Origin: Methylobacterium organophilum
GTDB taxonomy: Bacteria > Pseudomonadota > Alphaproteobacteria > Rhizobiales > Beijerinckiaceae
Direction of reading: 5' to 3'
DNA: 64,000 bases
Assembly: GCF_022179465.1 (NCBI RefSeq)
Contig: NZ_BPQV01000005.1
Location: 1-64,000 of the forward strand
Part shown: positions 645 to 21,722 of the stretch, one piece after another
Numbering within the stretch: position 1 is the stretch's first letter
Layout of the letters: each line of letters opens with the position of its first letter
Made by a program: the position numbers and the translations under genes
Notes under the pieces: generated by a model
What the model was told of the DNA's origin: nothing
Seen by the model: only the letters and a program-made list of their open reading frames with translations
The model's database searches: none

Positions 645-777
645 CCTGTTCACCCCTTTTGGCGGGTTATGACGGGCGCGGAGCGGCGACACAACCCCGG
701 GGCGGTCGCGCGCAATTCGGTTGACGGGATTTGGCAGGGGCGGGCGGCCTTTGCGTCACAGTCGGATCGCGTCCGCA

Positions 778-1290: not shown

Positions 1291-1293
1291 GGC

Positions 1294-2555: not shown

Positions 2556-2561
2556 CGCGGC

Positions 2562-3419: not shown

Positions 3420-3511
3420 GCGGGCTCCTCTCGAACGGGCGGCGTTGCGCGCCGCGAAGGGCTGACATAAGCCGCCCCGCAGCCGCTCTCAACGCTTGCA
3501 GGAGCCCCGGC

Positions 3512-4864
3512 ATGGGAACCCCTTCGGAAGCCCCGTTCGATCTCGTCCTCGCCGGCGGCACGCTGGTCAACCATGACGGCGCCCACGAGGCCGATCTCGG
3601 CATCCGGGCGGGCCGCGTCGCGGCGATCGGCGACCTGTCCCGCGCCGACACGGCCGAGCGGCGCGATTGCCGCGGGCTCCATCTGCTGCCCGGCGTGATC
3701 GACAGCCAGGTGCATTTCCGCGAGCCCGGCCTCGACCACAAGGAGGACCTGGAATCGGGCTCCCGCGCCGCGGTGATGGGCGGCGTGACCGCCGTGTTCG
3801 AGATGCCGAACACCCATCCGCAGACGACCAGCGCCGACGCGCTGGCCGACAAGGTCGCCCGCGCCCATCACCGCATGCATTGCGACTTCGCCTTCTGGGT
3901 CGGCGGCACCCACGAGAACGCCCATCAGGTCGCCGAGCTCGAGCGCCTGCCGGGGGCGGCGGGCATCAAGGTGTTCATCGGCTCCTCCACCGGCTCGCTG
4001 CTGGTGGAGGACGATGCCGGGGTGCGGGAGATCCTGTCGCGCATCCGCCGCCGCGCCGCCTTCCATTCGGAGGACGAGCCGATGCTGCGGGAGCGCAAGG
4101 GCCTGAGGGTCCCGAACGACCCGTCCTCGCACCCGGTCTGGCGCTCGCCCGAGGCCGCCGTGAAGGCGACGGAGCGCCTGATCGCGCTGGCCCGCGAGAC
4201 CGGCGCCCGCATCCACATCCTGCACATCTCGACCGCCGACGAGATGCCGATCCTGGCCCGCGCGAAGGACCTCGTCAGCGTCGAGGTGACGCCGCACCAC
4301 CTGACCCTGGACGGCAGCGAGGCCTATGCCCGGCTCGGCACCCTGGTGCAGATGAACCCGCCCGTGCGCGACGCCGCCCATCGCGACGGGATCTGGCACG
4401 GGCTCAGCCAGGGGATCGCCGACGTGCTCGGCTCCGACCACGCGCCGCACACGCTGGAGGAGAAGGCCAAGCCCTATCCGGATTCCCCCTCCGGCATGAC
4501 CGGGGTGCAGACCCTGGTGCCGGTCATGCTCGACCATGTCGCGGCCGGGCGCCTGTCGCTCGCCCGCTTCGTGGACCTGACCAGCGCCGGGCCGAAGCGC
4601 CTGTTCGGCATCGCCCGCAAGGGCCGCCTCGCGGTCGGCTACGATGCCGACGTGACGGTGGTGGACCTGAAGCGCCGGGAGACCATCCGCAACGCGTGGA
4701 TCGCCTCGAAATGCGGCTGGACGCCCTATGACGGCGTCACCGTCACCGGCTGGCCGGTGGGCACGGTGGTGCGCGGCCTGCCGGTGATGTGGCAGGGCGC
4801 TCTGGAAACGCCCGCGCGCGGCGAGGCGGTGGTGTTCGAGGAGGCGGTGCCGGCCGCCCGCTAG
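3512..4864 (+). CDS. Dihydroorotase / cyclic amidohydrolase
   Basis: A 450-residue amidohydrolase. The metal and lysine motifs are complete: DSQVHFREPG (HxH), GIKVFIGSS with the probable carboxylated Lys, AAFHSED, HILHIST and GSDHAPH. EMPNT in the second strand region is typical of dihydroorotases, which close carbamoyl aspartate to dihydroorotate in pyrimidine synthesis. It resembles class I PyrC-type enzymes found without an adjacent pyrB. No other pyrimidine synthesis gene flanks it, so a paralogous role is possible. It is monocistronic on the plus strand. Confidence 0.85.
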   Translation: MGTPSEAPFDLVLAGGTLVNHDGAHEADLGIRAGRVAAIGDLSRADTAERRDCRGLHLLPGVIDSQVHFREPGLDHKEDLESGSRAAVMGGVTAVFEMPNTHPQTTSADALADKVARAHHRMHCDFAFWVGGTHENAHQVAELERLPGAAGIKVFIGSSTGSLLVEDDAGVREILSRIRRRAAFHSEDEPMLRERKGLRVPNDPSSHPVWRSPEAAVKATERLIALARETGARIHILHISTADEMPILARAKDLVSVEVTPHHLTLDGSEAYARLGTLVQMNPPVRDAAHRDGIWHGLSQGIADVLGSDHAPHTLEEKAKPYPDSPSGMTGVQTLVPVMLDHVAAGRLSLARFVDLTSAGPKRLFGIARKGRLAVGYDADVTVVDLKRRETIRNAWIASKCGWTPYDGVTVTGWPVGTVVRGLPVMWQGALETPARGEAVVFEEAVPAAR

Positions 4865-4927
4865 CGGGCACGGCGTCGCGCGCTCACGCCCGCGGGTCGC
4901 GGCCTCTCAAACCCGACCGCGCCGGCC

Positions 4928-5179
4928 TCAATGCTGCAGGGTGGTGGTGAAGCCGCCCTCGCGGATGCGCTCGGGCAGGCCCTCGGCGTAGCGGGCGGTC
5001 GCCTCCTCGCCATAGGTCGCCACCAGTTCCTGGAAGGCGGCGAAGAGGGCGGCCTGGGCCATGCAGTCGCCGTCGAGCCCGTCGAGACAGCCTTCCGCGA
5101 AGGCTTCCGTCACGAGACCGAGCGCGACGCGCTTGTCGTTGGCGTCTGCGTCGAAGGGCGCGGGGGCGTCGTTATTCAT
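4928..5179 (-). CDS. Small acidic hypothetical protein
   Basis: An 83-residue acidic protein beginning MNNDAPAPFDADAND, with no signal peptide or membrane segment. The middle (RVALGLVTEAFAEG, CLDGLDGDCMAQAALFAAF) looks helical and has two Cys. I do not recognise the family. The ATG at 5179 is preferred over an upstream start because coding quality begins there. It is convergent with dihydroorotase. Confidence 0.6.
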   Translation of the reverse strand: MNNDAPAPFDADANDKRVALGLVTEAFAEGCLDGLDGDCMAQAALFAAFQELVATYGEEATARYAEGLPERIREGGFTTTLQH

Positions 5180-5344
5180 GGCTCTGGCACGTTTCTGTGC
5201 CGGACTGGGCCGGCCGAACACCTGCACGATACGCGAGCGCCCCCGGGCGGGCCAGCCGGTAATTTCGGATCGGTTAACGCGACCGCTCAAACCTGCAGGA
5301 ATTCGTGCAGGCCCGCCACATGTGGCCCGGGCGCCACAGGGCCG

Positions 5345-5809
5345 TCATCCGCCGAAGCGCCCGGCAATGGCATGGGACAGCCGGTCGCCCTCCGCGAGGA
5401 AGCGGGCGGTGGCCTCGCCGGCCGAGGGGGTGCAGATCCGATAGGTGAGGGCGTAGCCGCGATAGCCGCGGTTATAGGCCCCGGCGAGGCGGTCGCGCCG
5501 GTTCGGCGTCACGCCCTCCGTCTCCAGGAGCGCCCTCATCCGCGCCGGCCATTCCTCCGCATCCTGGGCGGCGCAGAGGCTGCGCAGGAAGGACAGGGAG
5601 CCGATCACCTCCGCGAGCCGCATCAGGTCGCGGTCATAGGGGGCCGGCGGCGGCTCGGCCGGGGGCGGGGGCTCCTTGTCCTTCTCGGGGGCCGGGGCCT
5701 TGCCGCCCTGCCGGGTCGGGGCGTTGCGCCATTGCGCGCCGGCCTCCGCCACCGGCCAGGCCGCGGCGAGGGTCGCGAGCAGCAGGAGCGCCGGGAGACG
5801 CGCGCTCAT
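5345..5809 (-). CDS. TIGR02301-family secreted protein
   Basis: A 154-residue exported protein with a signal peptide (residues 1-25, cleavage after AEAGAQ), a Pro/Lys-rich linker (about 38-57), then a domain starting [20 protein letters not shown]. The following [16 protein letters not shown] with conserved Cys residues matches the TIGR02301 family of alphaproteobacterial periplasmic proteins of unknown function. Its ATG overlaps the TGA of the upstream NUDIX gene by four bases, so translation is probably coupled. Confidence 0.8.
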
Positions 5810-6264
5810 GCCGCGACCTCCGCCGCGGCGACCCGGGCGAAGGCCTCGCGCAGGGTCTCGAACAGGCCCGGCGTGGTCTCCAGGGCCAGCACCTCCTCCG
5901 GCTCCGCCCAGCGCACGCCGAGGGCCTCCGGGCCGGGCATCGCCTCGCCGCCGCGCCAGAGGGCGGCATGGGGATGCACCACGTAATGGTGGCGCACGCG
6001 GCCGTCCGGCGCGCGCAGGATGATCTCGGTGGGCGTCAGGCTCGGGCCGACCACCGCCGCCTCGACCCCGACTTCCTCCCGAAGCTCGCGCAGCGCCGCC
6101 TCCGCCAGGGCTTCGCCGGGCTCGACGAGGCCGCCGGGCAGGGTCCAGACGCCGCGCATCGGCGGGTTGGCGCGGGCCGCGAGCAGCACGCGGCCGTCCC
6201 GGATCACCGCGATCGAGACGCCGAGGAACGGCCGGCTCGGGAAGGTGCGGGCCTCCTCGTTCAC
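5806..6264 (-). CDS. NUDIX hydrolase
   Basis: A 152-residue NUDIX-fold hydrolase. The Nudix box is complete: [20 protein letters not shown] followed by EVGV, with the REVREE-type glutamates that bind Mg. VWTLPGG precedes it. The family cleaves nucleoside diphosphates linked to another moiety; the substrate here, possibly an ADP-sugar or mutagenic nucleotide, is not determinable. The start is GTG overlapping the stop of the upstream secreted-protein gene (GTGA), and its own stop overlaps the next ATG. Confidence 0.88.
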
Positions 6265-7406
6265 CGTGCCGCCCCCGCAAGGCCGGGATCGACCACGGCG
6301 ACGCGCCCATCGGCGAGCCCGACCAGGAGGCGGGCCGCGTCCCCCCGACCGAGGGAGGCGAGGCCGGTCGCGGCCGGGGCGGGGAGGGGGATGCGGGCGC
6401 GCTCGCTCACCCCGTCCTTCAGGGAGACCAGGGCGAGGGCGCTGCGATCGGCCGAGGGCAGGGCGAGCAGCGGCACGGATCCGGTCTCGACGGCGGCGGC
6501 GAGAGGGGCCTCGCCCCGGGCGGCGGTGTAGCCCGGAGCCTCGTGCAGCAGGCGGAAGCCCTCCGGCGCGACCTCCCAGAGCTGGAGCATGCCGGCGCCG
6601 TCGGGGGCGCGCACGGCGGCGAGCTGGGTGCGGCCCTTGCCGGTGAAGTCGCCGGCGGCGGCGAAGGCGAGGGGCGCGCCCTCCGGCCCGGCGCCGGCCT
6701 GGGGCGGGGTCCGGGCGAGCACGGCCCAGTGCCCCGGCCCGTCCTTGCCGATCAGGAGCGCCGCGGAGGCGCCCCCGCCCAGGACCGCCACGGCGAGGAG
6801 GACCGGCTTGCCGGCGAGCCGGGCGACCAGGGGCGTGCGCGCGGCGAAGACCGCCTCGGCGCCCGGCGCCACGGTCTCCGTCGCGGTCGGCACCGGCTTC
6901 GGGTCGCGGGTCATCCCGATCGGCTGGCGCTCGCGGATGGTGAGGCCGGCGGCCTGGCCCGGGCCGCCGCCCAGGGCCCGGGTCGGGCCGGTGAGATAGG
7001 CGGTGAGCGGCCCGTCCAGCACCCGGCGGGCGCCGGGCACGGCGTTGCGCGGGGTCTCGGCCACCGTGAGGCCCTCGACCGCCTCCGCATCGATCGGGCT
7101 GACGCGGACCTGGCCCTCGCGGAGCGTCAGCACCGCGCCGCCGCCCTCGCCCCAGACCACGGCCAGCGGCTCCGGCCCCTCCGCCTCCGGCCCGATCTTC
7201 GGATCCGCGCTCGCGGGCTTGCGGCGGGTGCCGGGCACCAGGCCCGAGGTGGCGATGGAGAGCGCGGTCTCGCTGCCGGGGCCCCGCAGCGCGGTGGCGG
7301 CGAAGGGCAGGTCGAGGATCGCGACGGAGGGCCCGGCCGTCGCCGCGCCGGCCCCGATCATCCAGGCAGCCAGGGCGGCGAGCGCCGCCCTCGCGCGGTC
7401 AGACAT
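6261..7406 (-). CDS. Secreted hypothetical protein, probable beta-propeller
   Basis: A 381-residue protein with an N-terminal signal peptide (about residues 1-24, [12 protein letters not shown]) and no other membrane segment. The body is rich in short beta-prone repeats such as [20 protein letters not shown] and [15 protein letters not shown], resembling FG-GAP or VCBS propeller blades, with a closing [16 protein letters not shown]. The function is unknown. It overlaps the SDR gene by 8 bp upstream and the NUDIX gene by 4 bp downstream, so the four genes from 8151 to 5345 form one compact transcription unit. Confidence 0.7.
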
Positions 7407-8151
7407 GCTGCCCGCCGTTGATGTGCAGCTCGGCCCCGTTCACGTAGGAGGAGGCCTCCGTGCACAGGAAGTAGATCGCCTTGGCGACCTCGTCCGGCGT
7501 GCCGAGGCGGCGCTGCGGGATCTGCTGCACGAGCTTGTCGGTCCCGGGCGACAGGATCGAGGTGTCGATCTCGCCGGGGGAGATCGCGTTCACCCGCACG
7601 CCGAGGGGGCCGAAATCGGCCGCCATCTCCCGGGTCAGGCCGGCCAGCGCCGCCTTGGAGGTGCCGTAGGCCGCCCCCGCGAAGGGATGCACCCGGGAGC
7701 CCGCGATCGAGGTGACGTTGACGATCGAGCCCTTGGCCCGGGTGAGCTCGTCGCACAGGCCCCGCGCCAGCAGGATCGGCGCGAAGAAGTTCACCTGGAA
7801 CACCCGCGCCCAATCCTCGTAGGTCGTGCCCAGCGCCCCGAGGCGCTCGCCCTCGGGGCCCTTCGGCGAGATGCCGGCATTGTTGACGAGGGCGTGCAGC
7901 AGGCCGCCCTCCTTGGCGAGGCGCTCGGCCACCTCCCGCACGCCGCGCACGGTGTCCTGCGCATCGGCGAGATCGACCTGGAGGTGATCCTCCGGTCCCA
8001 TCTCCCAGGGACAGTTCTCGGGGAAGGGATGGCGCGAACAGGTGATGACCCGCCAGCCGGCGGCGGAGAATCGCTTCACGGTGGCATGCCCGATGCCCCG
8101 GCTCGCGCCGGTGAGCAGCATCACCCGTCGACGGTCGTTGGAGTAGGCCAA
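7399..8151 (-). CDS. Short-chain dehydrogenase/reductase
   Basis: A 250-residue classical SDR. It carries the nucleotide-binding motif TGASRGIG (residues 14-21), NNAG near residue 90, the catalytic Ser in VTSIAGS and YGTSK with catalytic Tyr and Lys, ending in a FabG-like INGGQHV. The substrate is unknown. The best start is TTG at 8151, preceded by a GAGGGA ribosome binding site at good spacing; no ATG or GTG fits. It is the first gene of the run that continues into the secreted protein, NUDIX and TIGR02301 genes. Confidence 0.88.
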   Translation of the reverse strand: MAYSNDRRRVMLLTGASRGIGHATVKRFSAAGWRVITCSRHPFPENCPWEMGPEDHLQVDLADAQDTVRGVREVAERLAKEGGLLHALVNNAGISPKGPEGERLGALGTTYEDWARVFQVNFFAPILLARGLCDELTRAKGSIVNVTSIAGSRVHPFAGAAYGTSKAALAGLTREMAADFGPLGVRVNAISPGEIDTSILSPGTDKLVQQIPQRRLGTPDEVAKAIYFLCTEASSYVNGAELHINGGQHV

Positions 8152-8415
8152 GGCCGTTCCCTCGCTGCCCCGGCACCGCAGGGGACGGGGGCCTACAGGT
8201 CTAAGCCGCGCCTAGCCGGAAATCCAGGGTCTGCGCTGCAATGCGAAAGAGGCCGGTTCCGTTCGCGGTTTCGCCTTGTATGCACGTTCCGCCTCGGTTG
8301 TGGCGGCGGCGCCCTTGCCGGCCGGGGAGGTTCGTGCGAGCGGCGGAACGGCCACGCTTGCCCCGGGCGCGGCCGGGCCGCGTCGGGGCACGACCGGATG
8401 CGTGAGGGAAGACGG

Positions 8416-8787
8416 GTGGGCACGCCGACAGAGCGTCCGATCGTGCTCGTGGTCGAGGACGACGCCGTGGTGCGCAGCGCCGCGGTGGAAACCCTCGAGG
8501 GGGCCGGCTTCGAGGCCCATCAGGCGGGCAACGGCAACGAGGCCATCCGGCATCTCGACCGCACCGACGGCGTGCGCGTGGTCCTCACGGACATCGACAT
8601 GCCCCTCGGCATCGACGGCATCAAGCTCGCCGCCTGCATCCATCGGCGCTGGCCGCGGATCGGCATCGTCATCACCTCCGGGAAGATCCGGCCGGAGCCC
8701 GGGGACGTCCCGGCCCGCGGCCAGTTCATCCCCAAGCCCTATACCGAGGCGGCGATCCTCGCGGCGATCCGCGGCCTGATGGCCTGA
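8416..8787 (+). CDS. Single-domain response regulator (receiver)
   Basis: A 123-residue CheY-like receiver with no output domain. The acidic pair (VVEDDAVV), the phosphoacceptor Asp in LTDIDMPLGIDG, the switch Ser/Thr in VITSGK and the conserved Lys in IPKPY are all present. The start is taken as GTG at 8416 because GAGGGAAGA sits just upstream; an ATG at 8398 is in frame but would place that site inside the gene. No cognate kinase is adjacent. The family acts in phosphorelays or as a chemotaxis-like output. Confidence 0.85.
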   Translation: MGTPTERPIVLVVEDDAVVRSAAVETLEGAGFEAHQAGNGNEAIRHLDRTDGVRVVLTDIDMPLGIDGIKLAACIHRRWPRIGIVITSGKIRPEPGDVPARGQFIPKPYTEAAILAAIRGLMA

Positions 8788-8790
8788 TCG

Positions 8791-9486
8791 TCAGGGATAG
8801 AGCCGCGCCCGGTCCCAGCCCGCGCCGGCCCTGGTGAAGCGGACGCGGTCGTGCAGACGGAAGTCGCCGTTCTGCCAGAACTCGATCTGCACCGGGGCGA
8901 TGCGGAAGCCGGTCCAGTTCTCCGGCCGGGGCACGGGGCCGTTCTCGTATCGCGCGGCGAGGGCCTCGACCTCGGCCATCAGGGTCGCCCGGTCGACGAG
9001 CGGACGCGACTGCCGGCTCGCGATGGCGCCCAGCCGGCTCTCCCGGCGGCGGCTCTCGAAATAGGCGTCCGCCTCCTCCGCCGTGACGCGGCTCACGGGG
9101 CCGCGGGCGCGGATCTGCCGGCGCAGAGACTTCCAGTGCAGCACGATCGCCGCCTGCGGGTTCTGCGCGAGCTCCTGGCCCTTGGCGGAGTCCACGTTGG
9201 TGTAGAAGACGATGCCGCGGGGATCGAGCCCCTTCATCAGGATCATGCGCACGTCCGGCAGCCCGTCGGACCCGGCCGTGGCGAGCGCCATGGCGTTGTG
9301 ATCCTCCGGCTCCGACAGGCGCGCCTCCTCCATCCAGGCGGCGAAGAGCGCCCAGGGATCCTCCGCCAGGGTGAAGTCGCCGGCCGCCTCGGCGGGAGGG
9401 TGCCGCGGCTCATCGATCTTTAACCCATCCAAGGTTTCATCCTCCGCAGTGGCATCCGGGTCGGGGGCACCGACGTTTGGGGGCAC
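8791..9486 (-). CDS. pdxH: Pyridoxamine/pyridoxine 5'-phosphate oxidase
   Basis: A 231-residue FMN enzyme making pyridoxal 5'-phosphate. Family segments: LPDVRMILMKGLD, IVFYTNVDSAKGQEL, HWKSLRRQIRARGPV (FMN and substrate contacts), ASRQSRPL and the C-terminal EFWQNGDFRLHDRVRF...W.RARLYP. The chosen start is GTG at 9486; the first 25 residues are poorly conserved, so the true start could lie inside. It is convergent with the receiver gene (3 bp apart) and divergent from the surface lipoprotein gene. Confidence 0.93.
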   Translation of the reverse strand: MPPNVGAPDPDATAEDETLDGLKIDEPRHPPAEAAGDFTLAEDPWALFAAWMEEARLSEPEDHNAMALATAGSDGLPDVRMILMKGLDPRGIVFYTNVDSAKGQELAQNPQAAIVLHWKSLRRQIRARGPVSRVTAEEADAYFESRRRESRLGAIASRQSRPLVDRATLMAEVEALAARYENGPVPRPENWTGFRIAPVQIEFWQNGDFRLHDRVRFTRAGAGWDRARLYP

Positions 9487-9523
9487 GACAGGCCGAACGG
9501 GTCATCGCGCGGGTTCAGGTGTA

Positions 9524-10087
9524 ATGCGTCGGAGCGACTGTAAAGCCCTCCCCGGGAACGACGTGCGCCCACGCCGCTCCCGGACGACCTCCGCCGGTGC
9601 GGCCCTGTTTCTCGCGATGGCGCTCCCGACATCGATCTGCGGTTGCAGCGGCCCGATCCTCACCTTCCGCAGCGAGGCCGCCGCCACGGCGCCAGAGGAG
9701 CCCACGACCACCGGCAGCCTCGCCAGGCCGGAACTGACCTTCGGCAAGGATCTGGGCGTCGAGGATTGGCGCCGGGCCCATGCCGCCCTGTCGGTGGCCC
9801 TCGATCCGCAGGGCAACGGCCGGCCGGTGAAATGGGAGAATCCCGAGACCGCGATGCGCGGCTCGGTGAATCCCACCGGCCTGCCCTACGTGAGCAACGA
9901 CGAGGTCTGCCGCGACTTCCTCGCCTCCGTGATCGGCGAGAGCACCAGCCGCTTCGTGCGCGGCACGGGCTGCAAGCCCTCCGGCAGCGCATGGGAGCTG
10001 CGGCGCCTGCGCACGGCCAAGGGGGAGGGCAAGCCGGACGAGAAGGGGGGCGCCAGAGGGCAGGCCAGGCCCGCCAGCAAGAGTTGA
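9524..10087 (+). CDS. Surface lipoprotein-like protein (RT0821/Lpp0805 type)
   Basis: A 187-residue exported protein. A hydrophobic segment ending ALPTSICGCSG supplies a plausible lipobox Cys. The domain DWRRAHAALSVALDPQGNG, PVKWENPETAMRGSV and CRDFLASV matches the 17-kDa surface-antigen-like family (RT0821/Lpp0805). This family is outer-membrane associated and of unknown function. The charged C-terminus (KGEGKPDEKGGARG) is atypical. The start ATG at 9524 is adopted because it directly precedes the basic N-region of the signal. Confidence 0.72.
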   Translation: MRRSDCKALPGNDVRPRRSRTTSAGAALFLAMALPTSICGCSGPILTFRSEAAATAPEEPTTTGSLARPELTFGKDLGVEDWRRAHAALSVALDPQGNGRPVKWENPETAMRGSVNPTGLPYVSNDEVCRDFLASVIGESTSRFVRGTGCKPSGSAWELRRLRTAKGEGKPDEKGGARGQARPASKS

Positions 10088-10160
10088 GGCGCCCGCCGCG
10101 CGGCGGACGATGGGCGCCGGTGCGGTCCCATCCCGCGGCGCACATTTGAGCCGACGAACA

Positions 10161-10180
10161 GCGTTGCAAAAAAGCAACGC
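10161..10180. promoter_or_regulatory. Perfect dyad upstream of the DnaJ-class gene
   Basis: GCGTTGC and GCAACGC flank an A6 loop as a perfect 7-bp inverted repeat, 70 bp before the DnaJ-class start. It has no T-tract on the plus strand, so it is a weak terminator candidate for the gene ending at 10087 and could instead be an operator. It is not a CIRCE element. Confidence 0.45.
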
Positions 10181-10249
10181 ATTCCCTACCTCGGTGGGAT
10201 GCTAACCTGGGCGGCCTCACCGCCGCCCGTGACCCCTCTCGAAGACCTG

Positions 10250-11194
10250 ATGATGCGCAATCCCTACGACGTTCTCGGAGTGCCGAAGGGCGCGAGCGAG
10301 GCCGACATCAAGAAGGCCTTCCGCAAGCTCGCCAAGACCTACCATCCCGACCGCAACAAGGACGACGCCAAGGCCAAGGACCGCTTCGCGGAAGCCAACA
10401 CCGCCTATGAGATCCTGGGCGACAAGGACAAGCGCGCGCAGTTCGACCGCGGCGAGATCGACGCCGAGGGCCGCCCGCGCGCGACCGGATTCGAGGGCTT
10501 TTCCGGCTTCGGCGGCGGCCCGGGCCGGGGCAATTTCGACTTCGAAGGCTTCACCCGCGGCGGCGGCGGCCGGGCCGGCGGCCCCGGCGGCATCGGCGAG
10601 GACATCTTCTCGCACCTGTTCGGCGAGGCCTTCCGGGCCGGCGGCGCCGGTCCCGGGGCGGGGGCCCGGGGCCCGATGCGCGGCGAGGACGTGGCGGCGG
10701 AGCTCGCCGTGACGCTGGAGCAGGTGGCGAGCGAGGAGAAGCTGCGCATCACCCTGCCCGGCGGCCGGGACGTCGATGTGGTGGTGCCCAAGGGCGTGAC
10801 CGACGGGCAGACCATCCGCCTGCGCGGGCTCGGCGGCTCCGGCGGCCCGCGGGGCGAGGCCGGCGACGCGCTGCTCACCATCCGCATCCTGCCCCATCCC
10901 CGCTTCAAGGTGGAGGGGGCGGACCTGCGCGCCACGGTCGACCTGCCGCTGGAAGACGCGGTGCTCGGCGGGATGCTGCGCGTGCCGACGCTCACCGGCG
11001 CCGTCGAGATGAAGGTGCCGCCCATGACCGGCTCCGGCCGCACCTTCCGCCTGCGCGGCAAGGGCCTGCCGAAGAAGGACGGCAGCCGCGGCGACCTGCT
11101 GGCGACGACGGCCATCGCCCTGCCCGACGGCGAGGATGCGGCGCTGACCGACTATGCCCGCCGCCGCCGCGAGGCGAAGGCCGGCACCGCCTGA
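10250..11194 (+). CDS. DnaJ-class (CbpA-like) co-chaperone
   Basis: A 314-residue J protein. The J domain is at residues 1-70 with the HPD motif in YHPDRNKDD, which stimulates Hsp70 ATPase. A Gly/Phe-rich linker follows ([27 protein letters not shown]), then the DnaJ C-terminal substrate-binding domains ([44 protein letters not shown]). There is no CxxCxGxG zinc finger, so this is a CbpA/DjlA-type class II J protein and not canonical DnaJ. Two adjacent ATGs (10250 and 10253) could start it. It is probably monocistronic. Confidence 0.9.
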
Positions 11195-11331
11195 GGCGCG
11201 GAGCCGGACGCACCGCGGCGCGGGAGGAAGGCCGCTTAAGGCTTTTTTCCCCGTCGGGGCTCCGCTAAGGATGCCCCGGCAGACGGGCGGCGGAGCATCG
11301 CCCGCCTGCGGGACAGCTTCAGGGTGCCTTG

Positions 11332-12192
11332 ATGTCGGAAACGAGCCCGGTTCAGAAATCCCCCGGCATCGGCGCCGCCGGAACCGGGCTTCTCGCCGGC
11401 AAGCGCGGCCTGATCCTCGGCGTCGCCAACAATCGTTCGATCGCCTGGGGCATCGCCAGGAGCGCCGCCGCCCATGGCGCTAAGCTCGCCTTCACCTACC
11501 AGGGCGACGCCCTGAAGAAGCGGGTCGAGCCCCTCGCCCGCGAGCTCGACGCCCATGTGGTCGGCCATTGCGACGTGACCGACGCGGCCTCGATCGACGC
11601 CGTCTTCGCCGCCACCGCCGAGCTCTTCCCCGAGGGCCTGGACTTCGTGGTCCATTGCATCGCCTTCTCCGACAAGGACGAGCTGACGGGCCGCTACGTC
11701 GAGACCAGCGAGGGCAACTTCACCAAGTCGCTGCTGATCTCCTGCTACTCCTTCACGGCCATCGCCCAGCGGGCCGAGACGCTGATGAAGAACGGCGGCT
11801 CGCTGCTGACGCTGACCTATTACGGCGCCGAGAAGTGGATGCCCCACTACAACGTCATGGGCGTGGCCAAGGCGGCGCTCGAGGCCTCCGTGCGCTACCT
11901 CGCCGCCGATCTCGGCCCCTCGAACATCCGCGTCAACGCGATCTCGGCCGGCCCGATCAAGACGCTGGCCGCCTCCGGCATCGGCGATTTCCGCTACATC
12001 CTGAAGTGGAACGAGTACAACGCGCCCCTGCGCCGGACCGTGACCATCGAGGAGGTCGGCGAGACCGCGACCTATCTCGTCTCCGACATGTCGAAGGGCA
12101 TGACCGGCGAGATCCTGCACGTGGATGCCGGCTACCACGTCGTCGGCATGAAGAACCCGGACGCCCCCGACCTCTCCCTCGACCGGGACTGA
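11332..12192 (+). CDS. fabI: Enoyl-ACP reductase (NADH), FabI
   Basis: A 286-residue FabI, the last reductive step of each fatty acid elongation cycle. The SDR-like divergent signature GVANNRSIAWGIA (the FabI form of the NAD site), the catalytic pair Tyr-x6-Lys in YYGAEKWMPHYNVMGVAKAA and RVNAISAGPIKTLAASGI are intact. A 20-residue N-terminal extension precedes LAGKRGLILG. The start ATG at 11332 follows a TTG codon in the same frame. It is a known target family of triclosan. Confidence 0.95.
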   Translation: MSETSPVQKSPGIGAAGTGLLAGKRGLILGVANNRSIAWGIARSAAAHGAKLAFTYQGDALKKRVEPLARELDAHVVGHCDVTDAASIDAVFAATAELFPEGLDFVVHCIAFSDKDELTGRYVETSEGNFTKSLLISCYSFTAIAQRAETLMKNGGSLLTLTYYGAEKWMPHYNVMGVAKAALEASVRYLAADLGPSNIRVNAISAGPIKTLAASGIGDFRYILKWNEYNAPLRRTVTIEEVGETATYLVSDMSKGMTGEILHVDAGYHVVGMKNPDAPDLSLDRD

Positions 12193-12198
12193 TCCGCC

Positions 12199-12882
12199 TC
12201 ACCCGTCGAGGCGCGCGCTCCAATCCTCCACGGCGGCCCTCTCCAGCCGCCGGGCGGCGAGCTGCCGCCAGGATTCCGACAGGGGCGCGAGGGCCGCGAT
12301 CTCCGTGAGGGCCGCCCGGTCGAGCCGGTCGACGTAGAACACGCGGAGCAGCCGGGCGAGCGGCCAGGACGGGCAGGGCCGCTCCACCAGCCGCAGGCGA
12401 TCCCCCGCCGCGACCATGCCCGGTTCCAGCACCCGGTAATACCAGCCCGTGCGCCCGCTCGCCTGCACGCGGCGCGCCATGTCCGGCACCCCGAAGCGCT
12501 CGTTGAGCTTCCAGCAAGGCTGACGGGCCTGGCTGACCTGGAGCAGGGCGCCCCCGGCGCGCAACACGTCGCCGATGCAGATCTCCGCCTCGGTCAGGCC
12601 GAGGCTGGACAGGTTCTCGCCGAAGGCCCCCGGCTGCCCGAGCAGGGCCGGCGGATCGGGCAGCTCCGCCCGCCAGGCCGCCGCATGGTCCAGCGCGTAG
12701 TGATGCACCGCCTTCTCGGGGCCGCCGTGATGGCGCGCGTCGGCCTGCGCGTCGCCGGACAGGCCGAGGGGGCCGATCGCGACGGGATCCGAGACCGGCG
12801 CCTTGGCGATCCCGCTCGGGGTGCCCTTCCGCCCCAGCGGGGCAACGGGCCCGACCAGGACCGCACGAATCGCAACATCCAT
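12199..12882 (-). CDS. MOSC domain-containing protein (YiiM-like)
   Basis: A 227-residue MOSC-domain protein. Recognisable are RKGTPSGIAKAPV, the metal/anion loop ARHHGGPEKAVHHYALDH, GAFGENLSSLG (the GENL box) and SQARQPCWKLNERFG with the conserved Cys that carries the sulfur or molybdenum ligand chemistry in this superfamily. YiiM-type proteins reduce N-hydroxylated purine analogues together with electron carriers (established for E. coli YiiM). The start ATG has a GGAG site upstream. It is divergent from an XRE-cupin regulator, its likely controller. Confidence 0.88.
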   Translation of the reverse strand: MDVAIRAVLVGPVAPLGRKGTPSGIAKAPVSDPVAIGPLGLSGDAQADARHHGGPEKAVHHYALDHAAAWRAELPDPPALLGQPGAFGENLSSLGLTEAEICIGDVLRAGGALLQVSQARQPCWKLNERFGVPDMARRVQASGRTGWYYRVLEPGMVAAGDRLRLVERPCPSWPLARLLRVFYVDRLDRAALTEIAALAPLSESWRQLAARRLERAAVEDWSARLDG

Positions 12883-15015: not shown

Positions 15016-15996
15016 TCAGTCGGGCACGACGAGGCCGTCGAGCTCCGCGGGCGCGGCCGGGTGGCGCGGGTCCATCGCCTCCAGGGTGTCGGCGATGGTG
15101 CGCGCCACGGCGAGGTTGCGCGCCCATTTCCGGTTGGCCGGGACCACGTGCCAGGGGGCGTAGGGCGTGGAGCAGCGCTGGAGCGCGTCGTTGAAGGCGC
15201 CCTGATAGGCGTCCCAGGATTTCCGCTCGACGAGGTCGGCGGGGTCGAACTTCCAGCGCTTCTCGGGATCGGCGAGCCGCGCTTCCAGGCGCTTCTTCTG
15301 CTCGTCCTTCGAGATGTGCAGGAAGAACTTCAGGATCGTGACGCCCGACGCGGTGAGCAGCCGCTCGAAATCGTTGATGAGGCCGTAGCGCTCCTGCCAG
15401 ACCGCCTCCGGCACGAGCTTCTTCACCCGCACCACCAGCACGTCCTCGTAATGGCTGCGGTTGAACACGCCGATCAGCCCGCGGCCCGGCACCCGGGCGT
15501 GGTAGCGCCAGAGGAAGTCCTGATCGAGCTCCTCGGCGCTCGGCACCTTGAAGGACCAGACCCGGCAGCCCTGGGGATTCACCCCCTGGAACACGTTGCG
15601 GACGGTCCCGTCCTTGCCGCCGGTGTCGATGGCCTGCAGCACCACGAGCAGGCTGCGGCGATGCTCGGCGTAGAGCTTCTCCTGGGCGGCCTCGATCCGG
15701 GCGCGGGCCGCCTCGAGCAGGGCCTTGGCCGCATCCTTCTCGACATCGCCGACCGCCTCCGGATCGACGGCGGACAGGTCGAAGGGCCGCCCCGGCTCCA
15801 CCGTCACGATCCCCGGCGCCGCGGTGACCAGAGCCGGGCGATGGCCCCCGATCAGCTCCGGGGCTTCCTCGGCGAGGGCGCTTGCGCTCCGCGCCCAGCG
15901 CGCGGAAGAGGGCGGATCGCCGGGCACCTGCGACCCTGTTGCATGGACTTTTCCCGGCTTTGGGTGCGCTGCATGCTTGCCGTGCTTCTTGGCCAT
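15016..15996 (-). CDS. ppk2: Polyphosphate kinase 2 family protein
   Basis: A 326-residue PPK2. The N-terminal 70 residues are a variable basic leader (MAKKHGKHAAHPKPGK). The catalytic core has VLQAIDTGGKDGTVRNVF (Walker A), GVNPQGCRVWSFKVPS, FNRSHYEDVLVVRVKK (Walker B region) and PWHVVPANRKWARNL at the end. These enzymes transfer phosphate between polyphosphate and nucleotides; class (NDP or NMP phosphorylation) cannot be decided here. It is divergent from the histidine phosphatase gene. Confidence 0.92.
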   Translation of the reverse strand: MAKKHGKHAAHPKPGKVHATGSQVPGDPPSSARWARSASALAEEAPELIGGHRPALVTAAPGIVTVEPGRPFDLSAVDPEAVGDVEKDAAKALLEAARARIEAAQEKLYAEHRRSLLVVLQAIDTGGKDGTVRNVFQGVNPQGCRVWSFKVPSAEELDQDFLWRYHARVPGRGLIGVFNRSHYEDVLVVRVKKLVPEAVWQERYGLINDFERLLTASGVTILKFFLHISKDEQKKRLEARLADPEKRWKFDPADLVERKSWDAYQGAFNDALQRCSTPYAPWHVVPANRKWARNLAVARTIADTLEAMDPRHPAAPAELDGLVVPD

Positions 15997-16110
15997 GGGG
16001 AAAGACTGCTCTCCATCGAGACATCTGAGGCCGGGGGCGGCCTGCAACATCGGAGATCGTCGCGTGAGCCCCGAGTGGACCCGACGGCCGGCCCTGGACG
16101 GAGCCGGACG

Positions 16111-16707
16111 GTGACACGCTACCCGACGATCTGGTTCGTCCGCCACGGGCAGACGGACTGGAACGCGCAAAGGCGGCTTCAGGGCCATCGCGACATCGAT
16201 CTGAACCCGATCGGCCTCGCCCAGGCGGGGGAGGCGGCCCGCCGCCTGCACGCCGTCGCCGGCGACGCGCTCGGGCAGGCCCGCTTCGTGGCGAGCCCGC
16301 TCCTGCGCGCCCGCCGGACCATGACGGCCCTGCGCAGAGCCCTGGCCCTGCCCCCCGAGGGCTTCGACACGGACGACCGGCTCAAGGAGCTCGGCTTCGG
16401 GATCTGGGAGGGGCTGACCTGGGCGCAGGTACGCCAGGCCGATCCCCGGGGCGCCACCGGCCGGGACCGCGACCGCTGGGGCTTCCGGCCCGCGGGGGAG
16501 GGGGCGGAGAGCTACGCCATGCTCGCCGAGCGCGTCGGCGCCTTCCTGCGGGAGCTCGACGGGCCGAGCGTCGTGGTCGGCCACGGCGGCACCGCCCGCG
16601 CCCTGCTCTATGCCCTCGGGCATCTCGACGCCCAGGCGGCCCCGCGGGTGGGCATCCGCCAGGGCGTCGTGCTCGTCCTCGAGGCGGAGGGGTGGCGCTG
16701 GGCGTAG
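16111..16707 (+). CDS. Histidine phosphatase family protein
   Basis: A 198-residue phosphoglycerate-mutase-like phosphatase. FVRHGQTDWN carries the catalytic RHG, ASPLLRARRT the second Arg, and VVVGHGGTARAL the second His. Members hydrolyse diverse phosphoesters (phosphoglycerate, cobalamin or sugar phosphates); the substrate is unknown. The start is GTG at 16111; upstream in-frame codons run into the leader of the divergent PPK2 gene. It is followed by about 200 bp before the NRPS gene. Confidence 0.87.
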   Translation: MTRYPTIWFVRHGQTDWNAQRRLQGHRDIDLNPIGLAQAGEAARRLHAVAGDALGQARFVASPLLRARRTMTALRRALALPPEGFDTDDRLKELGFGIWEGLTWAQVRQADPRGATGRDRDRWGFRPAGEGAESYAMLAERVGAFLRELDGPSVVVGHGGTARALLYALGHLDAQAAPRVGIRQGVVLVLEAEGWRWA

Positions 16708-16909
16708 CCGGAACGGGGCGAGATGCGGATGGCATTCAAGCCCGGTTCAAGCTACCCCGGGAAGATGCTACGAGGCGCTCCGAGTTGCGGATGCCGCGGA
16801 GCGGGCACGAAGCCGTCTCAATCCGGCCAAGCGCAACGGACATCTCCATCGGCACGGTGGCGCAGATCGACGAGCGGCGATCCTGCGTGGGTCGTCAGCG
16901 GAGCAGTGC

Positions 16910-19900
16910 ATGAGCAGTCTCGCCGAGAAGAGCCGGACTCGGCAGGCGGATTCCGGATCGATTCTCGAAGGGCGCGCCTTCCTGCGCGGCCCCGTGCGCC
17001 CGGACTTGGTCCGCGACGAGCTGCTGCCCGAGATCTTCCGTGCGAGCGCTGCGGCGCGGGGGGACCATCCCTGCCTGATCGACGGAGCGGATCCGGCCAG
17101 GACCGCCCTGACCTATGCCGAGGTGGATGCGCGCTCGGATGCCCTCGCGGCGGCGCTCGCCGCCCGCGGCCTCGGCCCCGGCGACGTGGTCGGCCTCTGG
17201 ATGGCCCGCGGGCCGGAGCTGCTGGTCGCCCAGATCGGCATCACCAAATCGGGCGCCGCCTGGCTGCCCTTCGACGCGGAGGCCCCGGCCGACCGTGTGG
17301 CCGTCTGCCTGAAGGATGCCGAGGCCAAGGCGCTGTTCGTCTCGGAGGCCCTGCGCCCGGCCGCCCCCGCCGGCACGCCCCTGGTCACCACCGCCGCGCT
17401 CCTGGAGGCCGCCGGCGGCGCCCCCGCGCCGGACCTGCGCGCCCGGGGCCTGACCCGGGAGCACCCGGCCTACCTGATCTACACCTCGGGCTCGACCGGC
17501 GTGCCCAAGGGCATCGTCATCAGCCACGCCAACATCTGCCACTTCCTGCGCTCCGGCAACGCGCTCTACGGCATGCGCGCGGACGACGTGGTGTTCCAGG
17601 GCGCCTCGGTCGCCTTCGACCTCTCCATGGAGGAGATCTGGGTCCCCTATCTCGTCGGCGCGACCCTGTTCGTGGCGAGCCCCGCCATGATGGGCGACGT
17701 GGAGAGCCTGCCGGCGATCATCGCGCAGAACGCGATCACGGTGCTCGACACCGTGCCGACCTTGCTCGCCATGATCCCGGGCGAGTTGGAGAGCGTGCGC
17801 CTGGTCCTGCTCGGCGGCGAGGCCCTGCCCGAGCCCCTGGTGGCCCGCTGGGCCGTGAACGGGCGCCAGCTCTTCAACACCTACGGCCCGACCGAGGCCA
17901 CGGTGGTCGCCACCGCCGCGCAGATGCGGCCGGGCGAGCCCGTCACCATCGGCGGCCCGATTCCGAACTACACGATCTACGTCGCCGACGAGGGGCTGAA
18001 CCTGCTCGGCCCCGGCGAGCAGGGCGAGCTCCTGATCGGCGGCCCCGGCGTCGCCAGCGGCTACCTGCAGCGCCCGGAGCTGACGGCGGAGAAATTCGTC
18101 GCCAATCCCTACCCCTCCGACGGGGCGGATCCCGTGCTCTACCGCTCGGGCGACGCCGTCTCCCTCGACGCGAAGGGCAACATCCTCTTCCACGGCCGCA
18201 TCGACGATCAGGTCAAGATCCGCGGCTTCCGGGTCGAGCTCGGCGAGATCGAGGCGCGGATCCGGGCGCAGGACGGCATCAACCAGGCCGCCGTGGTGCT
18301 GCGGCAGGACGACGGCGTGGACCGGCTCGTGGCCTTCCTCGTGCCCGAGCGCGGCGCCGCCCTCGACCTGCCCGCCCTGCGCCGGACGCTGGCCCGCGAG
18401 ATGCCGCCCTACATGGTGCCGGGCCATTTCGAGAGCGTGGAGACGCTGCCGCGCCTCACCTCGGGCAAGGTCGACCGCAAGGCGCTGCGGATCGCGCCCC
18501 TCACCGTGGCCGCGACCGAGGGCGAGCAGGAGCCGCCGGAGAACGAGACCGAGGCCGCCCTGCTCGCCGCCGCGCATCAGGTCTTCGGCAACCAGCCCAT
18601 CGGCTTCGAGGCGGATTTCTTCGCCGATCTCGGCGGGCATTCGCTGCTCGCCGCCCGCTTCGTCGGCGCGGTGCGCGAGATCCCGGCGCTGGCCGGCATC
18701 ACCCTGCAGGACGTCTACGCCAAGCGGACGCTGCGCAGCATGGCCCAGGCGCTGATCGAGCGCACGGGCGGGGTGGGCGCGCAGGCGGCGATCCGCGATC
18801 TCGGATTCGTCGCGCCCCCGCTCCTGCGCCGGGTGCTCTGCGGGCTGGCCCAGGCCGTGGCGCTGCCCTTCGTGATCGCGCTGGCGACCGCGCAATGGCT
18901 CGGCATCTTCGTGACCTACCTGCTGCTGACCGGCGGCAGCCTCGGCTTCTGGGCCGAGCTCGGCGTCCTGCTGCTCGTCTATATCGGCATCAACTTCGTC
19001 ACCGCCTGCATCGCCGTCGCGGCGAAGTGGCTAATCCTCGGCCGGACCCGGCCGGGGCGCTACCCGCTCTGGGGCAGCTATTACTTCCGCTGGTGGCTGA
19101 CCCAGCGCCTGACGCCCCTGGTGCACATCAAGTGGCTGCAGGGCTCGCCGGCCATCACCGCCTATCTCCGCCTGCTCGGGGCGAAGATCGGCCCGGACGT
19201 GCTCATCTCCGACATCGATGTCGGGGCGCCGGACCTGCTCAGCATCGGCCGTGGCTCCTCCCTGGGGGGCCGGCTCGTCATCGCCAATGCCGAGGTGGTC
19301 GGCAACGAGCTCGTCATCGGCCACACGACGATCGGCGAGGACGTGGCCATCGGCAGCTCCTGCGTCGTCGGCGCCAACACGGTGATCGGCGACCATGCGG
19401 AACTCGCCGACCTCACCACCGTGCCGGCGGGCACCGAGGTCGGCACCGCCGAATCCTGGGACGGCTCGCCCGGCCGGCGCGTCGGCACCGTCAATTTCGC
19501 CGATCTGCCCGAGCCCGCCACCGCGAGCCCGGCGCGGCGGGCCGCCTTCACCGCGGCCTATGCCTTCCTGCTCGCGGCGATTCCCGCGGTCGGGCTGCTG
19601 CCGATCTTCCCGGCCTTCTACCTCTTCGACCAGATCTCGGACCAGCTCTCCGAGATCACCGATATCGACTACCACGCCTATCTGCCGCTGCTGACCTGGC
19701 CCACCGCCATGCTGATGACGGCGGGCACGGTGCTGCTCATCGCGGGCATCCGCTGGGCGGTGCTGCCGCGCCGGCGCGCGGGCACCTACTCGATCTGGTC
19801 GGGCTTCTACCTGCGCAAGTGGCTGGTGGCGCTGGCGAGCGAGGTGACGCTGGAGACGCTCTCCTCCCTCTTCGCCACCGTCTACATGCGGGCCTGGTAC

Positions 19901-20965
19901 CGCCTGATGGGCGCGCGGATGGGCAAGGGCGCCGAGATCTCGACCAATCTCGGCAGCCGGCACGACCTCGCGGAGGTGGGCTTCAAGAACTTCATCGCCG
20001 ACGAGGTGGTGTTCGGCGAAGAGGAGATCCGCCGGGGCTGGATGCACCTGCACGAGGTCAGGACCGGCGCCCGCGTCTTCGTGGGTAATGACGGCGTGGT
20101 GCCCCCGGGCGCCGACATCCCCGACGACGTGCTGATCGGCATCAAGTCGAAGCCGCCGGCCAATGCCGAGATGGCGCCGGGCGAGACCTGGTTCGGCTCG
20201 CCCCCGATCAAGCTGCCCGTGCGCCAGAAGGTCGATCTCGGCTCCACCGCCCAGACCTACGAGCCGGGCGTGTGGCCGAAGCTGCGCCGGGGCGTGTTCG
20301 AGGCCTTCGCGACCTCGTTCTCGCCGATGCTCTACCTGACCCTCGCGATCTGCGCGATCGACTGGTACTTCTACCCGGCGATCCTGGAGCGCGACTGGGC
20401 CGGCCTCGCCGTCTCCTTCGTGGCCGCGAGCGTGATCATCGCCCTGATCCAGACCTCCACCGTCATCGCCCTGAAATGGCTGCTGATGGGCGTCTACCGG
20501 CCGGGCATGCGGCCGATGTGGTCCTGGTGGGCCATGCGCACCGAGGCCATCGCCGTCGCCTATTGGGGCCTCGCCGGCAAGGTGCTGCTGGAGCACCTGA
20601 TGGGCACGCCCTTCCTGCCCTGGGTGCTGCGCCTGCTCGGGGTGAAGGTCGGCCAGGGGGTGTGCATGCTTACCACCGACATCACCGAGTTCGACTGCGT
20701 GCGCATCGGCGACTTCTCGGCGATCAACCGCACCTCGGCCCTGCAGACCCATCTCTACGAGGACCGCATCATGAAGGTTGGCCGGGTCGAGGTCGGGCGC
20801 GGGGTCTCGGTCGGCGCCTTCTCCACCGTCCTCTACGACACCCGGGTCGGCGACTACGCGCGGCTGCGCCCCCTCACCATCGTGATGAAGGGCGAGTCCC
20901 TGCCAAGCCATTCGGAGTGGGAAGGGGCGCCGGCCGTGCCGGTGGTGCACGCCAAGGCGGCGTGA
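16910..20965 (+). CDS. Pls/PosA-type non-ribosomal peptide synthetase
   Basis: A 1351-residue synthetase. Adenylation domain about 40-530: A3 LIYTSGSTGVPKG (near 188), A4 FDLSMEEIW (236-244, with the Asp that binds an amino acid alpha-amino group), A5 NTYGPTEA (323), GRIDDQVKIRGFRVELGEIE and the A10 Lys in SGKVDRKAL. Carrier domain with GGHSL, phosphopantetheine Ser578. Then three pairs of membrane segments (about 637-709, 878-952, 1138-1194), each followed by a soluble domain with hexapeptide-like repeats. This is the layout of Streptomyces epsilon-poly-lysine synthetase (Pls). There is no thioesterase. A GGAG site precedes the ATG. The product is unknown; a homopoly-amino acid is inferred. 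Confidence 0.88.
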   Translation: MSSLAEKSRTRQADSGSILEGRAFLRGPVRPDLVRDELLPEIFRASAAARGDHPCLIDGADPARTALTYAEVDARSDALAAALAARGLGPGDVVGLWMARGPELLVAQIGITKSGAAWLPFDAEAPADRVAVCLKDAEAKALFVSEALRPAAPAGTPLVTTAALLEAAGGAPAPDLRARGLTREHPAYLIYTSGSTGVPKGIVISHANICHFLRSGNALYGMRADDVVFQGASVAFDLSMEEIWVPYLVGATLFVASPAMMGDVESLPAIIAQNAITVLDTVPTLLAMIPGELESVRLVLLGGEALPEPLVARWAVNGRQLFNTYGPTEATVVATAAQMRPGEPVTIGGPIPNYTIYVADEGLNLLGPGEQGELLIGGPGVASGYLQRPELTAEKFVANPYPSDGADPVLYRSGDAVSLDAKGNILFHGRIDDQVKIRGFRVELGEIEARIRAQDGINQAAVVLRQDDGVDRLVAFLVPERGAALDLPALRRTLAREMPPYMVPGHFESVETLPRLTSGKVDRKALRIAPLTVAATEGEQEPPENETEAALLAAAHQVFGNQPIGFEADFFADLGGHSLLAARFVGAVREIPALAGITLQDVYAKRTLRSMAQALIERTGGVGAQAAIRDLGFVAPPLLRRVLCGLAQAVALPFVIALATAQWLGIFVTYLLLTGGSLGFWAELGVLLLVYIGINFVTACIAVAAKWLILGRTRPGRYPLWGSYYFRWWLTQRLTPLVHIKWLQGSPAITAYLRLLGAKIGPDVLISDIDVGAPDLLSIGRGSSLGGRLVIANAEVVGNELVIGHTTIGEDVAIGSSCVVGANTVIGDHAELADLTTVPAGTEVGTAESWDGSPGRRVGTVNFADLPEPATASPARRAAFTAAYAFLLAAIPAVGLLPIFPAFYLFDQISDQLSEITDIDYHAYLPLLTWPTAMLMTAGTVLLIAGIRWAVLPRRRAGTYSIWSGFYLRKWLVALASEVTLETLSSLFATVYMRAWYRLMGARMGKGAEISTNLGSRHDLAEVGFKNFIADEVVFGEEEIRRGWMHLHEVRTGARVFVGNDGVVPPGADIPDDVLIGIKSKPPANAEMAPGETWFGSPPIKLPVRQKVDLGSTAQTYEPGVWPKLRRGVFEAFATSFSPMLYLTLAICAIDWYFYPAILERDWAGLAVSFVAASVIIALIQTSTVIALKWLLMGVYRPGMRPMWSWWAMRTEAIAVAYWGLAGKVLLEHLMGTPFLPWVLRLLGVKVGQGVCMLTTDITEFDCVRIGDFSAINRTSALQTHLYEDRIMKVGRVEVGRGVSVGAFSTVLYDTRVGDYARLRPLTIVMKGESLPSHSEWEGAPAVPVVHAKAA

Positions 20966-20975
20966 CGGGAGGGGC

Positions 20976-21722
20976 CTATTCCACCCGCACCCAGCCCTGG
21001 GGCATCAGGCGCTCCTGCGGGCGGAAGCGGGCCTTGTAGTCCATCTTGCGGGAGCCCTCGACCCAGTAGCCGAGATACAGGTAGGGCAGCCCGAGGGCGC
21101 GCGCCCGCTGGACGTGATCGAGGATCATGTAGGTGCCGAGGCTGCGGCTCGCCTCCTCGGGATCGTAGAACGAGTAGACCATCGACAGGCCGTCGGCGAG
21201 CACGTCGGTCAGGCAGACCGCCACCGGCGCGCCCTTGCCGCGGCCGTTGATCGCCGTGTCCGGCCCCCGGGGCCGGTAGACCACGAGATGCGTGTCGACA
21301 TGGCTGTCCTCGATCATCATCGCGTAGTCGAGCACGGTCATGTCGACCATGCCGCCATCCCCGTGCCGCGCCTCGAGGTAGCGGCGGAACAGGGCGTATT
21401 GCTCGGAGGCCGGGCGGTTGGGCTCCGGCGTCCCGACGAGGTCGGCGTTGCGCTGGAGGATGCGCTTCTGGCTGCCGGTGAGCGTCAGGTCGTCCACCAC
21501 GACCCGCACGGAGACGCAGGCGCGGCAGGATTCGCAGGCCGGGCGGTAGGCGATGGTCTGCGAGCGGCGGAAGCCGCCCTGCGTCAGGATCTCGTTGAGG
21601 TCGCGGGCCCGTCGGCCGACGAGATGGGTGAACACTTTCCGCTCCTCCTGGCCCGGCAGATACGGGCAGGGGGAGGGGGCCGTGAGGTAGAATTGCGGGG
21701 TGTCGCGCGGATGGCTCGTCAC
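20976..21722 (-). CDS. bpt: Aspartate/glutamate leucyltransferase (arginyltransferase family)
   Basis: A 248-residue aminoacyl-tRNA-protein transferase of the bacterial Bpt type. It tags N-terminal Asp or Glu with Leu for the N-degron pathway. Motifs: [25 protein letters not shown] at the start (read in pieces: [14 protein letters not shown], then EERKVFT), [22 protein letters not shown] with its Cys cluster, and [20 protein letters not shown]. The start is GTG at 21722 (VTSHPRD), matching the family N-terminus; an upstream reading to 21827 adds an unlikely leader. It converges with the NRPS gene. Confidence 0.92.

Follow-up and report, generated by a model that had tools for sequence, protein, structure and literature searches.

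Two described enzymes of the Pls/PosA family of nonribosomal peptide synthetases (NRPS) frame this study: PosA, the delta-poly-L-ornithine synthetase of Acinetobacter baumannii, whose gene has no biosynthetic neighbours (PMC10522769, in part), and Pls, the epsilon-poly-L-lysine synthetase of Streptomyces albulus. Characterised relatives adenylate an amino acid, load it onto a carrier and form side-chain amides iteratively (PMC10522769, in part); such polymers are few in number so far, and it is unclear what biological significance they have (PMC10522769 and PMC9606270, both in part). Here we describe a family member, pls, in a 64,000-nucleotide stretch of DNA (hereafter the window) from Methylobacterium organophilum (GCF_022179465.1, contig NZ_BPQV01000005.1, positions 1 to 64,000). 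Judging from sequence comparison, we consider it probable, at roughly 70%, that pls encodes a stand-alone, membrane-bound, NRPS-like homopolymer synthetase whose product would be a short isopeptide-linked polycation.

A preliminary description of the locus had regarded a polymer of this kind as new for a methylotroph, which the literature contradicts. Two Methylorubrum extorquens genomes hold one epsilon-polylysine-like non-alpha poly-amino acid (NAPAA) cluster each (PMC10353431), 47 NAPAA clusters are reported from Arthrobacter, Methylobacterium and Microbacterium among soybean soil bacteria (PMC9964534, in part), and the ten-residue adenylation (A) pocket code DLEDIGTV(T/V/I)K is listed for Archaea, Rhizobia, Methylobacterium and others with no substrate assigned (PMC10522769, in part). 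The V form of that group, for which our genus is named, matches the window code DLEDLGTVVK at 9/10 positions; the one difference, Ile instead of Leu, falls where PosA makes no substrate contact. An identical code, DLedLgTVvK, is printed for a NAPAA gene of another alphaproteobacterium, Bosea, from NBC_00550 and seven further complete genomes of that genus (PMC10508160; compared by printed code only). This genome announcement, which gives no product, was the only match to six pocket-code strings in the open-licence literature, and among the matches listed there we found no product reported for the branch with DLED-type codes. Family and pocket code are already in print; added here are the genus-wide conservation, the placement of the A domain as sister to PosA-type enzymes and the synteny with a row of housekeeping genes, and the remaining interest lies in the product and role of the DLED branch rather than in family membership.

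Domain architecture and repeats

The pls frame (16910-20965, forward strand) encodes 1351 amino acids with zero internal stops, and the protein scores 573.3 bits against the NCBIfam model TIGR02353 (Pls/PosA family NRPS; cut-off 423.1 bits). Four Pfam domains exceeded their cut-offs, namely AMP-binding, AMP-binding_C, PP-binding and Hexapep (Table 1), and the Pfam scan of the protein gave no thioesterase or condensation domain match. Hydropathy alone predicts six membrane segments in three pairs, with an extra marginal hydrophobic segment at residues 243-261 inside the A domain. Taken together, Pfam and hydropathy agree with the order proposed in the preliminary description, an A domain and a carrier (T) domain followed by three membrane pairs with no thioesterase, and the Pls/PosA architecture given there is upheld by the TIGR02353 score, the A and T domains and three repeats. 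PosA has the same architecture, and Pls likewise has A and T domains, three membrane pairs and three soluble units. The carrier domain scored 24.9 bits in the whole protein and 31.7 bits as a fragment (PF00550 cut-off 20.8), and its Ser578 is in place, every aligned row having Ser here. Two matches to the phosphopantetheinyl-transferase family were found in the source genome. The start at 16910 is supported by a GGAG at 16900-16903 and by the 32 of 36 other genus orthologues that align with the window protein from residue 1. An antisense or spurious open reading frame was ruled out by the domains and conservation.

Profile-profile comparison of the three units, each a membrane pair plus a soluble part, built from 39 aligned family members, gave between-unit probabilities of 100, 100 and 99.7, while two A-domain controls gave 0.7 and 0.2; the three units are therefore repeats, in line with the three tandem acetyltransferase-like soluble units expected of the family. 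This supports the earlier claim of three hexapeptide-like domains, although the Hexapep signature passed its Pfam cut-off in unit 1 only, fell short in unit 3 (22.1 bits vs 27) and had no match in unit 2. Hexapeptide spacing also rose above shuffled sequences in unit 1 only, with 1, 88 and 115 of 1000 shuffles scoring as high for units 1, 2 and 3, respectively.

Residues invariant in all 41 aligned rows are K706, R727 and W729 in the first unit, D1031 and N1060 in the second, and Q1279, H1281, E1284, K1289, Y1309, K1327 and E1329 in the third. The Q-x-H-x-x-E pattern formed by the first three of the latter occurs once in the window protein, and units 1 and 2 differ at the aligned place. We propose that a single polymerising site may lie around His1281 of the third unit, a candidate for which we found no discussion in the main text of PMC10522769, as far as that text was available.

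Placement within the family

With the A core alone as query, the PosA A domain (8g95-8g98) was the best solved match, at 372 bits, and the full-length protein scored 377 bits against it vs 255 bits against the Pls A domain (7wew). For comparison, a member with a DMEH-type (PosA) code, L227, scored 543 bits against the PosA A domain, and a DAES member, L240, scored 295 bits against Pls vs 239 bits against PosA. Linear gramicidin synthase chains, which have two A domains, scored high for all three queries and outscored PosA or Pls for the window protein and L240.

Trees were built from 39 rows, leaving out L046 and L238. A single branch (98/99 in the A-domain tree, 98/93 in the C-terminal tree) set all 22 DLED-type rows apart from the others, and in the A-domain tree they joined four of the five DMEH rows at 100/100, making the A domain of the window protein a sister branch to the PosA-code enzymes. 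The Lys-type DAES rows (two) and the 2,4-diaminobutyrate (Dab)/2,3-diaminopropionate (Dap)-type DFE rows were separate from the DLED rows in each tree. Other pocket codes seen in the same class were DVEAAGTGSK (L232), DSECVGGVTK (L237), DFEHVGTCSK (L239) and DAESLGTVIK (L240 and L241), and L242, which belongs to the taxonomic family of the window, carries DFEAVGTVTK.

Pocket code and candidate monomers

The pocket code DLEDLGTVVK was read by alignment at positions 237, 238, 241, 280, 301, 303, 324, 332, 333 and 520. The A4 Asp noted in the preliminary description is Asp237; together with Glu241 it fits a basic alpha-amino acid, and the code alone says no more. Codes with Glu239 and Asp278 serve ornithine, lysine and arginine (PMC12283262 and PMC5311044, both in part). 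In PosA, the essential residues are Asp217 and Glu221; Thr304 and Ser313 contribute, and Met218 bears on length (PMC10522769, in part). The window protein keeps the Asp, the Glu and the Thr (Thr324 for Thr304) and has Leu in place of Met218. The comparison with Pls and related synthetases that the preliminary description suggested, made here residue by residue, yields the code of a basic amino acid that is neither that of PosA nor that of Pls. It shares 6/10 positions with the PosA signature DMEHNGTVSK and retains three of the five contacts (D217, M218, E221, T304, S313), Met being replaced by Leu and Ser by Val. At the second position, which is Ala in characterised enzymes for poly-lysine and Phe in those for poly-Dap/Dab (PMC10522769, in part), Leu238 departs from Pls as well, against which the A domain also scores lower than against PosA.

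L-ornithine is our tentative first choice of monomer, because the A domain branches with PosA and because Leu occupies the place of Met218. Several observations weigh against this PosA-like reading. The pocket differs from that of PosA because Ser313 is replaced by Val333 and His260 by Asp280; loss of Ser313 carries a 183-fold cost in PosA, and neither His260 nor Asn280 contacts the substrate there (PMC10522769, in part). Full-length searches ranked both 8xjz and the linear gramicidin synthase chains, the latter with the scores of their two A domains summed, above PosA. The fifth DMEH row, L233, was placed elsewhere in both trees, and in the C-terminal tree the DLED and PosA-type rows joined at 84/100, which is not firm, with the long-branched L237 inside. 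Of the 19 codes that we gathered, the assigned one closest by identity is that of lysine, DGEDHGTVVK (8/10), a lysine assignment that is our own interpretation of PMC12283262 (in part), while the assigned ornithine codes DGEDHGTVTK and that of PosA reach 7/10 and 6/10. The published arginine consensus fits DLEDLGTVVK at 7/10 positions.

The lysine code raises an alternative that we consider unlikely, though the strongest of the rivals, in which the product would be an isopeptide polymer of another diamino acid, either epsilon-poly-lysine or gamma-poly-2,4-diaminobutyrate. The Methylorubrum announcement, which labels its cluster epsilon-polylysine-like (PMC10353431), is consistent with it, whereas the second pocket position holds Leu, near PosA Met in size, rather than the Ala or Phe of such enzymes, and the two DAES rows and the DFE rows are separated in both trees from those of the DLED type. 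As the monomer itself, lysine would be a clearly weaker candidate than ornithine, and Dab a slightly weaker one than lysine.

The arginine match points to a still less likely alternative, in which the A domain would activate arginine or another basic residue without a free side-chain amine, giving an alpha-linked product or a short conjugate, for example with a lipid or polyamine. In its favour, arginine-activating Planktothrix codes share E-D-I-G (PMC5311044, in part), and one Bdellovibrionales member of the family showed modest arginine activity in vitro (PMC10522769, in part). Against it, the consensus has Ala or Val at position 2, Ala at 322 and Thr or Asp at 331, where the window protein has Leu, Thr and Val; an acceptor-making gene next to pls is absent from the ten window genes identified by Pfam; and the characterised members named in the available part of PMC10522769 polymerise diamino acids. 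We accordingly grade another basic monomer such as arginine as improbable, on a par with Dab, and retain ornithine as the tentative preference.

Conservation, selection and second copies

TIGR02353 exceeded its cut-off in 40 of the 61 genomes of a relatives search, comprising the source genome, 36/36 other members of the genus (Methylobacterium/Methylorubrum) and 3/24 genomes from other families of the order. The frame is open and the pocket code identical in 37/37 genus genomes. The ratio of nonsynonymous to synonymous substitution (dN/dS), computed with a Nei-Gojobori script, was 0.235-0.381 in nine pairs, by which purifying selection on pls is shown. A degenerate or non-functional gene, for which we found no evidence, is extremely improbable given the open frame, the invariant pocket and these ratios.

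Codes were read in 77 of the best 80 of 579 confirmed places, a selection biased to near relatives: 41 DLEDLGTVVK, 33 DLEDLGSVVK, two DLESLGSVVK and one DLEDMGTVVK. The other three encode truncated proteins with the pocket code unread, and for 11 of the 80 proteins the last 600 residues exactly match one of the 36 sampled genus orthologues.

In overlapping samples from wider ranks, matches were found in 10/385 genomes of the class, 27/398 of the phylum and 211/298 of the family (E 1e-60; 205 over the TIGR02353 cut-off). In the family sample, ordered by kinship, 25/25 genus genomes among the rows listed (all but 67 non-matching genomes) carry pls, and the first non-matching rows belong to other genera. 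A further point on the opposing side is that 87/298 family genomes had no match at E 1e-60; pls is therefore not essential for the family at large.

The preliminary picture of a stand-alone gene is extended by a second full-length copy in the source genome, on contig C7 (L087:7321-11328). Second copies, all with the code DLEDLGSVVK, occur in three of the 37 genus genomes including this one, and the 298-genome search showed a second match in two further genus genomes. In the A-domain tree, the C7 copy groups with Azospirillum and Rhodospirillales-type rows (eight rows, 100/100) and not with the window copy, and it stands alone in the C-terminal tree. Because this grouping appears in the A-domain tree only, acquisition by transfer is likely and unproven. 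A chaperonin gene lies ~3 kb upstream of the C7 copy.

Gene neighbourhood

The identities of neighbouring genes (Table 1) come from Pfam on ten chosen window genes, with gene calls from a composition-based picker rather than a trained gene finder. The preliminary description was right that no tailoring or export gene adjoins pls, and no precursor or thioesterase gene was found among the window neighbours examined either; it overlooked the histidine phosphatase gene upstream on the same strand. The GTG start of this gene at 16111 is a guess, and its frame lies beneath an over-long antisense reading of PPK2, whose true start is probably MAKKHGKHA at 15996. Rfam gave zero matches at gathering scores across the window, and an uninformative promoter and terminator scan of 15900-21100 found none.

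Table 1. Features of the pls locus (positions in the window; aa, residues of the window protein).
Feature	Position	Strand	Basis or remark
DnaJ gene	10199	+	Pfam
fabI-like enoyl reductase gene	11329..12192	+	PF13561; part of the fabI-phosphatase-pls-aroC row of relatives
MOSC gene	12199	-	Pfam
AAA gene	13564	-	Pfam
PPK2-type kinase gene, divergent	15016..15996	-	PF03976, 240.2 bits
Histidine phosphatase (branch 1) gene	~16111..16707	+	PF00300, 138.8 bits; ends 202 bp upstream of pls
pls, Pls/PosA-family NRPS gene, complete	16910..20965	+	TIGR02353 match and translation
Adenylation core (AMP-binding), aa 43-386	17036..18067	+	PF00501, E 6.7e-82
Stretch with pocket residues D237, L238, E241, D280, L301, G303, T324, V332, V333	17618..17908	+	Alignment
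A-domain C-terminal subdomain (AMP-binding_C), aa 446-520	18245..18469	+	PF13193; ends with Lys520 (18467-18469)
Carrier (T) domain (PP-binding), aa 551-615	18560..18754	+	PF00550; Ser578 at 18641-18643
Transmembrane pair 1, aa 638-712	18821..19045	+	Hydropathy
NRPS_term_dom, membrane polymerisation part, aa 647-1342	18848..20935	+	TIGR02353 profile 2-695 of 695
Transmembrane pair 2, aa 878-953	19541..19768	+	Hydropathy
Transmembrane pair 3, aa 1132-1196	20303..20497	+	Hydropathy
Candidate catalytic motif Q1279-T-H1281-L-Y-E1284, third unit	20744..20761	+	Q, H and E in 41/41 aligned rows
ATE gene	20976	-	Pfam
RDD gene	21847	-	Pfam
HemB gene	22787	-	Pfam
ECH gene	24031	+	Pfam
MgtE gene	26972	+	Pfam

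We compared the flanks of 71 genus loci (60 without identical proteins; one of the 71, L142, is a Beijerinckiaceae metagenome-assembled genome) and 48 other loci, many of which end early at contig ends. In 61/71 genus loci (50/60 without identical proteins) and 14/48 others, the phosphatase gene precedes pls on the same strand, and in 60/71 genus loci (49/60) PPK2 is found upstream on the opposite strand. Upstream fabI was found in 38/71 genus loci (32/60) and 19/48 others, and downstream aroC in 0/71 and 19/48, respectively. Outside the genus, pls sits between fabI-phosphatase and aroC, flanked by all three, in 12/48 loci; at least one of the three is present in 26/48 and none in 22/48, the latter including the Azospirillum and magnetospirilla loci. 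ATE, RDD, HemB and ECH had zero matches in the fetched flanks of the 71 genus, 48 other and three second-copy loci. An operon partner as a clue to function was ruled out, these four being unmatched in those flanks and aroC and fabI being housekeeping genes.

All 14 genomes chosen for lack of a pls match have aroC; the phosphatase lies within the 1.5 kb aroC flank in seven and within ~170 bp of aroC in three, where fabI precedes each time. Given this row in pls-less genomes and the synteny around pls in relatives, the most likely history is that, in the family, pls was inserted into a pre-existing fabI-phosphatase-aroC row and that Methylobacterium then kept the phosphatase side, gained PPK2 there and parted from aroC. 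The position of a polyphosphate-related enzyme, PPK2, beside a putative polycation synthetase is possibly due to chance.

The two relatives left out of the trees differ in layout. L046 (6102-9452, reverse strand) encodes a protein of 1116 aa with an unusual layout, in which four carrier domains in tandem, nearly identical in motif and set at intervals of 86 residues, precede a Pls-type terminal domain. Its neighbours (610-12212) include an 823-aa partial condensation-A-T protein with the code DIWQVGADDK, a PALP enzyme, an ornithine-cyclodeaminase-family enzyme, a TauD oxygenase, an aminotransferase and a phosphopantetheinyl transferase; the PALP and cyclodeaminase-family pair is reminiscent of diaminopropionate synthesis. 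L238 is a 3474-aa frame holding a Pls-type terminal domain.

Proposed function and implications

In the mechanism that we propose, the A domain would adenylate one basic alpha-amino acid, which would be loaded as a thioester onto the phosphopantetheine of Ser578. The membrane part, with its three hexapeptide-like repeats and one candidate site at His1281, would then make bond after bond between the carboxyl that is loaded and the side-chain amine of the following unit, giving a short polycation with isopeptide links, at or across the membrane. An isopeptide-linked cationic oligomer is the most likely product; the linkage is carried over from characterised relatives, which also counts against the proposal.

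In Methylobacterium and many Beijerinckiaceae, pls has the appearance of a retained core function, not of an accessory antibiotic cluster. It is possible, if still doubtful, that the DLED branch makes a polycation undescribed from such bacteria, and that this polycation serves Methylobacterium and other Beijerinckiaceae in a conserved core role and not as an antibiotic. If so, that role might be, for example, in the envelope or in charge balance of polyphosphate, in view of PPK2 being a conserved neighbour within the genus. With a genus-wide (37/37), invariant-pocket branch located in the housekeeping row of its relatives, the use of such a polymer to its own maker would, in a tractable and non-pathogenic strain such as Methylorubrum extorquens AM1, become testable.

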